From NCBI GenBank assembly GCA_016194635.1, contig JACQBC010000010.1:186001-250000 (forward strand): 64,000 nucleotides of DNA. The letters are read 5' to 3'. The position numbers and the translations under genes were made by a program. The notes beneath the pieces are model-generated. The model did not search any database. It was given only the letters and a program-made list of their open reading frames with translations, and was not told the origin of the DNA. Positions 25,646 to 64,000 of this stretch are shown here, in pieces. The DNA comes from Gammaproteobacteria bacterium. Its GTDB lineage: Bacteria > Pseudomonadota > Gammaproteobacteria > UBA6429 > Thiohalophilaceae. Positions within the stretch are counted from its first letter, which is position 1. Each line of letters starts with the position of its first letter.

Positions 25646-25734
25646 GTGAACCCGGCGTGGTGACCGTCGACGACAGGGATGTCGCCGTCGAGACTATAGG
25701 GACGTATACACGGCGAGTCACCACACCGGTTCAC
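25646..25734. repeat. Imperfect palindromic element, relative of 60089-60208
   Basis: Outer arms GTGAACC...GTGGTGAC and GTCACCAC...GGTTCAC flank a core with CGACA-GGGA-TGTCG and TATAGGGACGTATA. The core and the inner GTGAC/GTCAC ends align with the palindrome at 60089-60208, while the distal arms differ. It lies in the 203-bp gap between lpxH and the next gene. Confidence 0.75.
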
Positions 25735-25773
25735 ACATGCGTTCATTACACCCCGTAGCCAGGCTGCCAACCA

Positions 25774-53607: not shown

Positions 53608-54486
53608 ATGGATATCGCCAGTTTACACGCCTTTATCACCGTTGCCGATACCGGCTCGTTTTCGCTTGCTTCGACTAAGTTATACCTCACCCAACCCGCC
53701 ATCAGCAAACGTATCGCCTTGTTGGAATCCGAATTGGACACACGCCTGTTCGACCGCATCGGCCGGCAAATTTCCTTAACCGAGGCGGGGCAGGCGCTGC
53801 TGCCGCGTGCCCGACGCATCTTGCAAGAGATCGAAGACAGCCGCCGTGCCTTGCAAAACCTGTCGGGCAAAACCGCAGGATTATTGCGTATCGGTACCAG
53901 CCATCACATCGGATTACATCGCCTGCCACCGGTATTACGCAACTACAGCAAACACTTCCCCGATGTCGAACTCGATATTCAGTTCATGGATTCCGAACAA
54001 GCCTGTCGCGCGGTTGAACGCGGTGATCTGGAAACAGGCATTGTAACCTTGCCCTTAAAACACAACCCCAGCTTGCGCGCACAGATCATCTGGCCCGATC
54101 CCTTGTCTATTGTGATTGGCAAAACCCATCCTTTAATCCACCAACCTAAAATTGGATTTCCCCAACTCGTGGAGCACAAAGCCATTCTGCCCGCCCACGG
54201 TACTTTCACCCGTGAGGTGATTGAACAAACCTTTAATAAACATCAATTGCAGGTAAAAATTGGTTTAGTGACGAATTATTTGGAAACGATCAAAATGATG
54301 GTCAGCGTGGGGCTGGGATGGAGTGTGCTACCGAATTCGATGCTGAGTAAAGATATTAAGGCCGTGCAGTTACGCGGCTTGCACATGCAGCGTGATTTGG
54401 GCATTGTCTGGCACGGCGGGCGAACGCTGTCGAATGCAGCGCTGCAGATGCAGGCGTTATTGCGCAATGAAATACATCGAGGTTAG
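53608..54486 (+). CDS. LysR-family transcriptional regulator, divergent from leuC
   Basis: 292 residues. The winged helix-turn-helix is at about 1-60 ([37 protein letters not shown]), followed by a linker helix and a two-lobe effector domain (about 90-292). It is transcribed away from leuCDB across 74 bp, so it is the likely regulator of the leucine genes, with a pathway intermediate as possible ligand. Its stop codon overlaps the convergent toxin stop by 3 bp. Confidence 0.92.
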
Positions 54487-54761
54487 CGCGATTCGCGGTT
54501 ATGCCACAGCCGCAGCGCATAAATAACGGAATCTTGTATCTGGTAGCGGAGTTCGTACTGCCCAACGAGAATCCGACGCACCTCGCGCGGTTCAAATTCT
54601 TCAAGCTTCTCGCCGATGCGAGGATTCGTCCGTAGTTTGGTTGGTGCCGCAGCGAGTGATTGCACGGTGTGTGCGGCGGCCGATCGATTCACTGCAGCCA
54701 AAAATTCATACAGACGCGCCAGATCGGATAGCGCCTTGCTTGTCCATTGCAGTGTTATCAA
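54483..54761 (-). CDS. ParE/RelE-type toxin with TTG start
   Basis: 92 residues from a TTG that overlaps the antitoxin stop codon (TTGA). LITLQWTSKALSDLARLYEFLA is the ParE N-terminal helix pair, and the C-terminal [34 protein letters not shown] is the typical beta-sheet end with Arg and Tyr residues. ParE toxins act on DNA gyrase and RelE toxins on mRNA; which applies here is unclear. An open extension upstream lies inside the antitoxin and is not part of the protein. Confidence 0.83.
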   Translation of the reverse strand: MITLQWTSKALSDLARLYEFLAAVNRSAAAHTVQSLAAAPTKLRTNPRIGEKLEEFEPREVRRILVGQYELRYQIQDSVIYALRLWHNRESR

Positions 54762-55018
54762 CGCGGCGTAGGCAACGGCTGGTCGGTGCTTAAGCTGTCT
54801 GCCCATGCTTGTACCGCTTGATGGTCGATGACCTGGCCAGCATCCACCTCGGCCAACGCCTCGCGTGTCATGCGACTGCGTTCTTCTTCTTGATCGATCC
54901 AGGCGGATAAGGCCTGTTTCATGATCCAACCACGTGAGCGTTCTAATCGTGTAGCCATTTGATCGACTTTCTGCGCGAGCAACAACGGAACGTGTACCGT
55001 CAGGACTTTAGTGCTCAT
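54758..55018 (-). CDS. Ribbon-helix-helix antitoxin
   Basis: 86 residues. STKVLTVHVPLLLAQKVDQMATRLERSRGWIMKQALSAWI is a ribbon-helix-helix DNA-binding domain, followed by an acidic tail that would bind the toxin. The start at 55018 has GAGGTGGG directly upstream. It precedes and overlaps the ParE-type toxin gene by 4 bp. The palindrome upstream is a likely autorepression site. Confidence 0.85.
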   Translation of the reverse strand: MSTKVLTVHVPLLLAQKVDQMATRLERSRGWIMKQALSAWIDQEEERSRMTREALAEVDAGQVIDHQAVQAWADSLSTDQPLPTPR

Positions 55019-55049
55019 CACCCACCTCTGCATTTTAAAAATCAATCTG

Positions 55050-59016: not shown

Positions 59017-60048
59017 TTATTCACTATGGATATACACCGTGATCTCATCACGGTCGTGGTATAGCTGTTTCGCAATGCGTCGCGTCTGAGTCTTTTTGGC
59101 TTGCAGTTGTTTATCGATTAACGCAAAGCATTTTTGTACCTCGGCAAAGCGTTGTTTCATCGGTAATTTAAGATTAAAAATACAATGCTGACACCAACCA
59201 TTGGCAAACCAGCGTGCCACCAACTCCGCAATCCGGATCGGTTGGCCGATGATATCGCACACCATCCAATCCACTGGCCGTTGCGGTTTATAGGTAAACC
59301 CGTCGGCGCGCACATGCTGCACCATCTCGGTGGCCATCAGCACTGGGTCCATCTTGCCGTTGTCCACCGCGATCACCAACAAGCCACGCTTAACCAATTG
59401 ATAGGTCCAGCCGCCGGGGGCCGCGCCTAGATCAATCGCGCGTCGGCCAGGATCAAACACCTTCAAATGCGATTTTGGATCGATCAGACTGACAATAGCC
59501 TCTTCGAGTTTTAAGGTAGAACGGCTCGGCGCGTCTTGTGGAAACTTCAAACGCGGAATCCCCTGTGGCCAGGGCGAGCTGTTGCGCCGATCCGCGACAC
59601 CAATATATACTTCGTTGGTTGCGGTAAAACACAGGTGCAAACGCCAAGGTGAATTAGCTTGCAGCTTACCTGCCGCCTGCAACGCCTTCAACAGGGGCTT
59701 ATTTATTCCTCGGCACAGCGGCGACAACACCTTGGCCAGATCCGTATCCGGTGTTTCAATAAACACCTCGTCCACGCGCACCTTTAGCGCATCACAGGCA
59801 CCAACGATCGCACTCACCCGATCCTTGGTATTCAAGTCGGTCAAATGCGCCAGGACCTCGAACCATTGGCGTGCAAAAATAAACTGTTCAAAATCCTGTT
59901 GCATCCCATCGATCAGCATCTCGGATTGGCAGATCACATAACCAGGATAACTGGTGGTGGACACGCCCGCATCCGCACAGTGCTGCTGGCATTCCAACGC
60001 AACTTCGGTTTCAAATCCGGGGCGGCAATACAGGAAAAGTTGGGTCAT
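59017..60048 (-). CDS. rlmM: 23S rRNA 2'-O-ribose C2498 methyltransferase
   Basis: SAM-dependent enzyme that methylates C2498 of 23S rRNA. A THUMP-like N-terminal part (TQLFLYCRPGFETEVALECQQH) is followed by the RrmJ-type domain with the SAM motif DLGAAPGGWTYQLVKRG near 210 and catalytic MVCDII near 261. 343 residues, slightly shorter than the Escherichia coli 366. It shares the window with rlmKL, about 1.6 kb away on the opposite strand. Confidence 0.94.
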   Translation of the reverse strand: MTQLFLYCRPGFETEVALECQQHCADAGVSTTSYPGYVICQSEMLIDGMQQDFEQFIFARQWFEVLAHLTDLNTKDRVSAIVGACDALKVRVDEVFIETPDTDLAKVLSPLCRGINKPLLKALQAAGKLQANSPWRLHLCFTATNEVYIGVADRRNSSPWPQGIPRLKFPQDAPSRSTLKLEEAIVSLIDPKSHLKVFDPGRRAIDLGAAPGGWTYQLVKRGLLVIAVDNGKMDPVLMATEMVQHVRADGFTYKPQRPVDWMVCDIIGQPIRIAELVARWFANGWCQHCIFNLKLPMKQRFAEVQKCFALIDKQLQAKKTQTRRIAKQLYHDRDEITVYIHSE

Positions 60049-60088: not shown

Positions 60089-60208
60089 TCGCAGTGCGTG
60101 CCTGTATCCTCCCGCGTTGTGACCGTTGGCCGCAGGGATGCGGCCACCGAGCTACAGGGATGTATTCACGCGTGTCACAACGCGGGAGGATACAGGCACG
60201 CACTGCGA
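60089..60208. repeat. 120-bp palindrome with perfect 35-bp arms
   Basis: The arms 60089-60123 and 60174-60208 are exact reverse complements. The 50-bp centre contains TGGCCGCA-GGGA-TGCGGCCA (60126-60145), a perfect 8-bp stem with a GGGA loop, and TACA-GGGA-TGTA. The core matches the element at 25646-25734. It fills most of the 277-bp rlmM-mqo gap, which holds no other gene. Confidence 0.92.
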
Positions 60209-60325
60209 TTCACAATGATATAAAATTAGAAATTACTTGTAGAAATCGTGCAGCCTACCATTCCTGTCTTCTACACTTCAAGCACAAATTCCTAGGGAGA
60301 AGGAGTTATGGAACAGCAGACAGTC

Positions 60326-61648
60326 CTAATCAGTTTTCAGTTCATTGGCTAACATCGTCTCATTAATCTGACAGCCTAGATACGCCGCAATACTGCGCAT
60401 ATCCTGTTCGCCATTTTGTAAACAACTGGTGGCGCCGGGTGACGGCGTCATATTGAAAATAATCCCGGCACCCGGATTGATCTTGGCCTCGCCCAGGTGC
60501 AACTTGCGATTGAGCTTGTCGATCATTACCGGCCGCACGCCGCCTACGCGCTGCGCGAACCTCAGATCACTGGCCTTGATCGACGGCACAATCTTTTGTA
60601 CGTCGCTGACAAATAATCGCTCCCGCACGATTGGAACTTCAAACAGGATATTACGCAACATATAGGCGCGAATCTCACTGTCTTTAAATAAATCCCACAT
60701 CACCCCACGGACCCCCTTACCCAAACTAAAGGTTTCAAAAAACTCCAGCACCGTTCCCCAATTGTAACGCTCCAGCATCGGCAAAATCAACGCAGTGGGC
60801 CCAAAGCGGGTCTTGCCCGGTACCAGGATATCCGGATCACCGTGCACCGCCGCGAACGGCAGTTTTTCTTTTTGAATGGTATACACCTTGCCATTAAGCA
60901 CCGGCGGGGAAAAATAAAAACTCCCCGCCACCGGCAAACAAGCATACTCCTTGCCGTAGCCCATGCGTTGTGCGAACAATAAACTGTGCCCGCCGCTCGA
61001 CACCACCACGAAGCGTGCCTGTAAGGGACCGTGATCGGTTTCCACCCAAAATAATTTATCGTGCTGCTCAATACGTGTCACACGGGTATTCAAATAAGTC
61101 GAAATCGTTTTACCCGGCACCGCGGTGGCATCCCGGATAAAACTGTCCGCTACCGCTTGGAAGTTGACCGTGTCGTAGTGATCCTCGGTAACCAACCCAA
61201 CAATACGCTCGGTGCGCGCCTTAACCAAATTCGGTTCGACACGCGCCAAACCGTCTTTTTCCATGCACAGCATCTGCGGAAAATGCGGTTTAAATGCCTC
61301 AAAGCGCTTTTGTAGAAATTCACATTCCTGCTCCCCTACCCCCAAGACCATTTTGGGATACTTATAGATTAACTGATCCCGCCGTGGCGATTTCAAGGCA
61401 TAATTCGCCGTCATCGCCGCCCCCGCCTTGACCTTAATCGCTTTATCTAAGCTGTAGTTGGTCTCGATATCACCGCAGTGCAGGGTTTGGCTATTATTGC
61501 GTCCGTGGGAATTGAGTGCCGCCACATGCGAGCATTTCTCCACTAACCCTATCGATTTTAGATCGGTATAGCGTGCCAACAAAAATAACAAGGCACTGCC
61601 GGAAATACCGCCGCCTATGATCAACACATCGTGGGGTTGGGGTTGCAT
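60326..61648 (-). CDS. FAD-dependent malate:quinone oxidoreductase-like protein
   Basis: 440 residues with FAD-binding GGGISG at 12-17 and SHGRNNSQTLHCGDIETNYS near 48, the Mqo-type loop. VGGVRPVMIDK and GAGIIFNMTPSPGATSCLQNGE near the C-terminus are typical of malate:quinone oxidoreductases (membrane-associated oxidation of malate to oxaloacetate, electrons to quinone). The protein is shorter than standard Mqo (about 490-550), so another 2-hydroxyacid is possible. Its first 18 bp plus flank are duplicated at 62536-62553. Confidence 0.78.
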   Translation of the reverse strand: MQPQPHDVLIIGGGISGSALLFLLARYTDLKSIGLVEKCSHVAALNSHGRNNSQTLHCGDIETNYSLDKAIKVKAGAAMTANYALKSPRRDQLIYKYPKMVLGVGEQECEFLQKRFEAFKPHFPQMLCMEKDGLARVEPNLVKARTERIVGLVTEDHYDTVNFQAVADSFIRDATAVPGKTISTYLNTRVTRIEQHDKLFWVETDHGPLQARFVVVSSGGHSLLFAQRMGYGKEYACLPVAGSFYFSPPVLNGKVYTIQKEKLPFAAVHGDPDILVPGKTRFGPTALILPMLERYNWGTVLEFFETFSLGKGVRGVMWDLFKDSEIRAYMLRNILFEVPIVRERLFVSDVQKIVPSIKASDLRFAQRVGGVRPVMIDKLNRKLHLGEAKINPGAGIIFNMTPSPGATSCLQNGEQDMRSIAAYLGCQINETMLANELKTD

Positions 61649-63415: not shown

Positions 63416-64000
63416 CTAACTTAGAATATAACTAATAATCACCGGTAGATAATCATACTTTATTACTGGTAGGCAACTCTGCAACGCGCTATTAACATTA
63501 AGTCTGCCACCTGTCATAGTTATACCTGATAATGCTGAAATGGATACTGTATTATTTAAAATAGCGTTTCTAATACCACTCGTATTCAGTTGGCATTTTG
63601 ATAGTAAAAGTGCGGCAGCACCCGTTACATGAGGAGTTGCCATAGATGTCCCACTCAAATACCCGTATGTATTACCCAGCATCGTAGAATATATGTCCAC
63701 ACCGGGCGCACCTAAATGAACCGTGTTACGCCCATAGTTAGAAAAAGAAGCGAACTGATCTTGATTGTCAATCGCCGCGACAGAAATGATGTTTGGAGAG
63801 GCATAGTTAGCAGGATAAAAAGGTTTAAGATCATTATTATTACCATTATTACCCGCCGCAGCCACAAATAAAATATCGTATGAATTGGCACGAATTATTT
63901 CTGATTCCATCGATGCTGAATAACAAGCATTTCCAAGACACCCCCAACTATTATTTAATACACGGATATTTGCATTTACACCAAGTATTGTTTTAGCTTG
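63416..64000 (-). CDS. Subtilisin-like serine protease (S8), cut by window edge
   Basis: The last 194 residues or so of a subtilase; the frame runs open to the window end. ANIRVLNNSWG, VAAAGNNG with the oxyanion-hole Asn, NIISVAAIDNQDQFASFSNYG, and the catalytic Ser in GTSMATPHVTGAAALLL are all visible. The catalytic Asp and His lie outside the window. The C-terminus LNVNSALQSCLP ends soon after the domain with no extra anchor. A secreted protease is likely, but the signal peptide is not visible. Confidence 0.9.
   Translation of the reverse strand, partial: QAKTILGVNANIRVLNNSWGCLGNACYSASMESEIIRANSYDILFVAAAGNNGNNNDLKPFYPANYASPNIISVAAIDNQDQFASFSNYGRNTVHLGAPGVDIYSTMLGNTYGYLSGTSMATPHVTGAAALLLSKCQLNTSGIRNAILNNTVSISALSGITMTGGRLNVNSALQSCLPVIKYDYLPVIISYILS

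Follow-up and report, generated by a model that had tools for sequence, protein, structure and literature searches.

What is the long palindrome at positions 60089–60208 of the window (the whole stretch of DNA analyzed, 64,000 nucleotides), and how did its arms come to be perfect? A repeat search recovered arms of 35 nt (60089–60123 and 60174–60208, + strand) that are 100% complementary and 50 nt apart, the right arm being the exact reverse complement of the left, and the predicted fold places GGGA in both inner hairpin loops of the 50-nt center; a sequence-only reading had described both features correctly. The + strand of the palindrome folds at −98.7 kcal/mol, compared with −45.4 ± 4.1 kcal/mol for dinucleotide shuffles (z = −13). 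Within the center, hairpin 1 (GGCCGC-AGGGAT-GCGGCC, 60128–60145, +; loop motif CAGGGATG at 60133–60140) and hairpin 2 (UAC-AGGGAU-GUA, 60153–60164, +; loop motif CAGGGATG at 60155–60162) are predicted on either side of a short linker. The palindrome is placed between co-directional genes, both on the minus strand: rlmM (59017–60048), whose start is 41 bp away, and a gene for an FAD-dependent oxidoreductase related to L-2-hydroxyglutarate oxidase/malate:quinone oxidoreductase (60326–61648), whose end is 118 bp away. Adjoining it at 60308–60352 (+), a 14-codon frame lies right behind a strong GGGAGAAGGAGTT ribosome-binding-like sequence and was annotated by no tool used. Elsewhere in the window, judged by eye, two overlapping small frames at 54483–55045 (−) resemble a ribbon-helix-helix antitoxin and a RelE/ParE toxin, and a partial subtilase-like serine protease frame at 63416–64000 (−) runs off the window end.

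The palindrome belongs to a repeat family. A 181-base query matched its own genome at 44 places, nearly all of them through the core alone (query 57–122; 60116–60181 of the window, +), and when these places were aligned with their flanks, every full copy had long arms of differing sequence. The arms of the window copy are likewise locus-specific, apart from the inner GTGAC of the left arm and the inner GTCAC of the right arm, which are part of the conserved core. A covariance (structure) model built from 29 copies found at least 144 copies of the center in the 3.7-Mb source genome, a lower bound from the best 150 candidates scored. The 29 copies were the cleaner ones of 47, which makes pairing statistics from the model flattering; arm pairing was also measured on 114 copies taken without that selection. 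Subfamily 1 (69 of the 114, window copy included) has a median arm of 34 bp that differs in sequence at each locus, with 2308 Watson-Crick pairs, 30 G-T pairs, 36 mismatches, and 9 gaps (97% Watson-Crick) and 32 perfect arms; the 45 measured copies of subfamily 2 have 1375 Watson-Crick pairs, 38 G-T pairs, 58 mismatches, and 19 gaps. Sliding the arms by one to three columns as a control lowered pairing from 99.6% to 23–49%. With G-T wobbles so scarce, RNA selection alone would hardly account for the pairing, which seems to be imposed at the DNA level.

Copies are scattered between genes. By gene calls from our own simple codon model, 102 of 103 classifiable copies are intergenic, 38 of them convergent and 9 divergent, and those between co-directional genes (25 sense, 30 antisense) have no strand bias toward their neighbors. 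Close pairs in the source genome are mostly in (−,+) orientation (11/14; e.g., L032:1578–2044), and (−,+) neighboring copies 80 to 340 bp apart have unrelated DNA between them. The window holds a second copy between convergent genes (25646–25735, +; C13:211646–211735 in the source-genome scan), with imperfect, mismatched arms, an intact CAGGGATG loop in hairpin 1, and a degenerate hairpin 2 loop. An Rfam search gave no family match, its sole returns being microRNA-type models and Ysr224, none of which reached its gathering score and which a long hairpin of any kind would give, and a literature search with core words returned just unrelated primer matches and no paper describing the family. The family is apparently an undescribed intergenic DNA repeat.

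It is also widespread among gammaproteobacteria. The element is carried by 14 of 40 relatives, some with many copies, and at least 30 gammaproteobacterial genomes besides the source genome contain the family. When 84,980 species genomes were scanned for the exact pattern, 86 stretches matched, every one with a title that names gammaproteobacteria or a group inside that class (Tenderia, Thiohalobacter, Thiogranum, Sedimenticola, Chromatiales, Acidiferrobacterales, Lysobacteraceae, Haliea, and Exilibacterium). Carriage by phage, plasmid, or viral contig was rejected, as searches of those sequence sets gave no match to the element.

Both loops of the conserved head are constrained to CANGGANG across 120 source-genome copies and 106 copies from 30 other genomes. 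Outside the source genome, the 106 copies give C103 A102 N G101 G102 A102 N G101 for loop 1 and C102 A101 N G102 G102 A102 N G102 for loop 2, with variation almost confined to the N positions; the loops are intact in 99 and 100 of these 106 copies, part of which were fetched with a pattern fixing most loop letters, and in 36 and 36 of 40 copies (two genomes) found without that pattern. In the source genome, there is little variation at the N positions of loop 1, and the loop 1 variation seen outside it comes largely from one subfamily. The hairpin 1 stem covaries and its loop does not; more generally, stems show covariation or lineage differences around unchanged loops, as in the GGCTTCAGGGATGAAGCC and GTCCAGGGATGGAC heads of G040. 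The motif coincides with the CsrA/RsmA site and is present on one strand only, on which basis the element may be the structured RNA that the sequence-only reading also proposed. CsrA/RsmA sites are ANGGAN hexaloops with a free N, and a dimer bridges two sites 10 to 63 nt apart (PMC7652899, PMC3791407). The CsrA SELEX consensus is RUACARGGAUGU with ACA and GGA invariant, ACAGGGATGT in the hairpin 2 loop motif is the SELEX core, and CAGGA(U/A/C)G is the repeat of CsrB (PMC7652899); Rsm proteins also bind the motif in ssDNA hairpins (PMC9928087). Like CsrA/RsmA-binding RNAs, the element has at least two hairpins with A(N)GGA loops within bridging distance, 19 nt separating the two GGAs in the window copy. 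By motif comparison, the CANGGANG constraint is that of a CsrA/RsmA hexaloop site, and the two sites are suitably spaced for a single CsrA dimer.

A(N)GGA loops persist in variants that have one hairpin or several. In longer forms, additional hairpins (loops CAAGGATG and CAGGATG, for example) lie on the motif strand, with none or one on the other, and shorter forms (L378, L379) have one hairpin and one GGA loop. In other genomes, an insertion of about 42 nt (L336, L342) interrupts loop 2 and has no GGA hairpin of its own, so the GGA-loop rule is not absolute. This structured insertion (CAAGGTGAGACCGC..GCGGTCGAGAAGGTGCCCTGGGG; L336:1501–1631, L342:1501–1631) lies inside hairpin 2 in several heads, which come from more than one genome, and is apparently another small repeat targeting the present element. 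The source genome has one csrA gene. Because csrA is present in almost all gammaproteobacteria, this serves as a consistency check only.

Comparison of orthologous sites was informative on how the arms and head change. The two species HyVt-519 and HyVt-581 (84% identical) have one common orthologous copy. Most of its arm differences are compensated, and only 2 of the 59 core positions have changed, both freely variable in the family and one being a loop N. Were the core diverging like its surroundings, two or fewer changes would have a probability of 0.0025, and we count this conservation as probable selection on the head. The perfect arms had been taken to imply recent formation; retention of the palindrome through compensated changes at 84% identity speaks against this, and arm perfection is therefore maintained, not merely recent. 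Between MAG27 and N1D-Bin_12 (93–96% identical), one copy (L324/L341) is unchanged, two sites (L100/L139 and L348/L360) have the head inverted and both arms changed, and three more gaps (L332/L322, L334/L364, and L344/L354) hold different elements. Judged from these products, an inverted center with jointly changed arms points to recombination or template switching between arms, the latter having been documented as a source of compensatory changes in several bases (PMC8794818). Gene conversion, also proposed in the sequence-only reading, fits in a wider sense, as probable arm-to-arm correction together with inversion of the center at L100/L139 and L348/L360.

Mobility of the family is best seen in subfamily 2. 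Its 47 copies end alike (TACTAATGAG...CTCAGTAATA) amid unrelated flanking sequence, and define a sharply bounded element of about 150 bp with arms common to the copies (ends TACTAATGAGTCACATGGAAAGG...CCTTTCCATGTGACTCAGTAATA). Sharp ends were mapped for this subfamily, the window copy belonging to the other. Such bounds, shared arms, and unrelated flanks argue that the family has been mobile, and, together with high copy number and intergenic scatter, they support the earlier suggestion of a nonautonomous mobile palindrome. Most subfamily 2 copies have TA at both ends, which would fit a TA target, although without an empty site the TA may be the element's own. Genome G001 has an orthologous gap without the element, but its intergenic DNA is too diverged to align and provides no exact empty site. 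In isolate SZUA-186 (G040), heads occur as inverted pairs inside a composite of about 340 bp with its own ends, present in about 30 copies. Within this composite, variation is greatest in the arm segments, which nonetheless remain complementary; head and spacer are conserved. The idea that arms are copies of flanking DNA was rejected for these composites, as conserved element sequence lies outside the variable arm segments; arm turnover is thus internal to the element in the G040 composites, and the arms of singletons such as L016 may still be copies of their flanks. The transposase with matching ends that the sequence-only reading suggested looking for was not found among the candidates sought. 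A RAYT/Y1 transposase was rejected as mobilizer because the source genome, with its at least 144 copies, has no match to PF01797; an IS630-type transposase, suggested by the TA ends, was rejected because DDE_3 is absent from that genome; and a search for an autonomous element by end pattern found no end pair that encloses a gene.

Placement and strand argue against a simple RNA role. In copies antisense to both neighbors, the two loops are intact in 24 and 26 of 30 cases, on a par with the sense copies (22 and 21 of 25), and with the lack of strand bias toward neighboring genes, this means that read-through transcription cannot explain the constraint; a function in mRNA read-through was rejected. 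Promoter-like sites upstream in the sense direction are in no excess over background (28 versus 21–27 of 120 copies), and T-runs behind the arms occur in just 2 to 3 of 120 copies, with no conserved terminator beside them. A promoter or terminator next to the copies was accordingly rejected, and the element has no sign in these data of the own promoter that is typical of CsrA/RsmA-binding RNAs. Head flipping is, moreover, what a strand-specific RNA function should resist, and both loops could be held to one motif by a transposase that binds hairpins in ssDNA. Either RNA arises from transcription not tied to the neighbors, or the constraint acts on a DNA element, e.g., through a hairpin-reading transposase active until recently.

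The window palindrome is best read as a copy of a new REP/MITE-like family, that is, of a dispersed, high-copy, nonautonomous REP/BIME- and MITE-like repeat with a double CsrA-type site, and we give this explanation as a whole about an even chance. The element has a conserved head of roughly 60 nt that tops a long stem and usually holds two small hairpins, rarely one or several. Template switching or recombination between the arms would carry a mutation from one arm into the other, so that the arms stay complementary, and the same process would flip the head. On the GGGATG strand, each loop would be a CsrA/RsmA site and the pair could hold one CsrA dimer, for which the head would be conserved; if that strand is transcribed, the element would act as a small CsrA decoy. 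The head probably binds CsrA in vitro, to judge from its motif, and a decoy role in the cell is possible but rather doubtful.

The most serious competitor, which we hold to be somewhat improbable, is a mobile palindrome acting purely at the DNA level, its two-hairpin head being recognized, as single-stranded or cruciform DNA, by a transposase or recombinase that is perhaps lost, as REP hairpins are by RAYTs, and its CsrA likeness being coincidental. Strand-symmetric placement with loops equally intact in both orientations, head inversion at orthologous sites, and inverted pairs like those of REPINs (the (−,+) pairs of the source genome and the composites elsewhere) all speak for such an element. 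It has to accommodate, however, the lack of Y1 and IS630 DDE_3 transposases in the source genome and of an autonomous copy recognizable by its ends, a loop constraint equal to a known six-letter RNA-binding motif with the two free positions in place, and retention of that motif in variants with one to several hairpins. A bidirectional transcription terminator or mRNA 3′-end stabilizer, i.e., a very stable hairpin between genes, would account for the excess of copies at convergent gene ends and for the extreme fold stability, but the rarity of T-runs, the co-directional neighbors of the window copy, which lies 41 bp upstream of a start codon, and a conserved 60-nt head with loops that a terminator does not need make it quite unlikely. 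An assembly artifact or one-off recent inverted duplication draws on nothing beyond arm perfection and is refuted by the same architecture at at least 144 places and in independent genomes, and by the existence of orthologous copies; its probability is negligible.

If the head binds CsrA, genomes with 50 to 150 copies would hold hundreds of high-affinity sites, any account of Csr circuits in those genomes would have to include a repeat count, and this would be a case of mobile DNA caught rewiring a global RNA regulator. More tentatively still, and on balance unlikely, the repeat family may have spread optimal double CsrA/RsmA sites to more than 100 intergenic places per genome, a scattered reservoir of decoys that mends itself and taps or buffers the global Csr regulator, in effect a transposable CsrA sponge. 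Independent of the CsrA question, the arms are a natural experiment on the survival of long palindromes: with sequences that are unrelated between loci yet pair almost perfectly, and with heads inverted between close relatives, arm-to-arm correction is directly testable.

Among known systems, the element is reminiscent of REP/BIME/REPIN sequences mobilized by RAYT (PMC3116915, PMC3733652, PMC2817692), which are also high-copy, intergenic, and palindromic, occur in inverted pairs, are enriched at convergent and co-directional gene ends, and undergo compensatory stem changes. REPs, however, are 20 to 40 bp with GTAG/CGTC tags, the tagged hairpin having an 8- to 9-bp stem, a 4- to 5-nt loop, and a CCA tail (PMC3733652), whereas the element has arms of about 34 bp and a multi-hairpin head of about 60 nt (unit of about 130 nt including arms), loops of fixed CANGGANG motif, and a genome without Y1 transposase. 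Tests for the RAYT and tag features came out negative, and the element is therefore not classed as a REP; the unit is not short with an unpaired GTAG or CGTC tag, the CGTC before hairpin 1 being paired in the predicted fold. From the MITE pattern, it has sharp terminal inverted repeats and unrelated flanks (subfamily 2) and lacks a related autonomous element or transposase among those sought. QMITE2 of Coxiella, a gammaproteobacterial MITE (PMC5896051), is similarly palindromic (150–190 bp), near gene 3′ ends, and very stable in fold, with one inversion noted between strains; it differs in its GTAG REP and 7- to 11-nt direct repeats, no CsrA motif is mentioned in PMC5896051, and Coxiella was not matched by the core pattern in the scan of 84,980 species genomes. 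TwoAYGGAY RNA (RF01731; PMC4333381) shares two GGA-loop hairpins, proposed CsrA binding, and a poorly conserved outer stem, but is described for Clostridia and is not a high-copy repeat, and the element has no Rfam match to RF01731. Whereas the decoy RNAs CsrB, CsrC, and RsmX/Y/Z come from one to few dedicated sRNA genes with promoters, and the element is a dispersed repeat with a long palindromic stem and no promoter detected, both have several A(N)GGA-loop hairpins per molecule, paired for a CsrA dimer.
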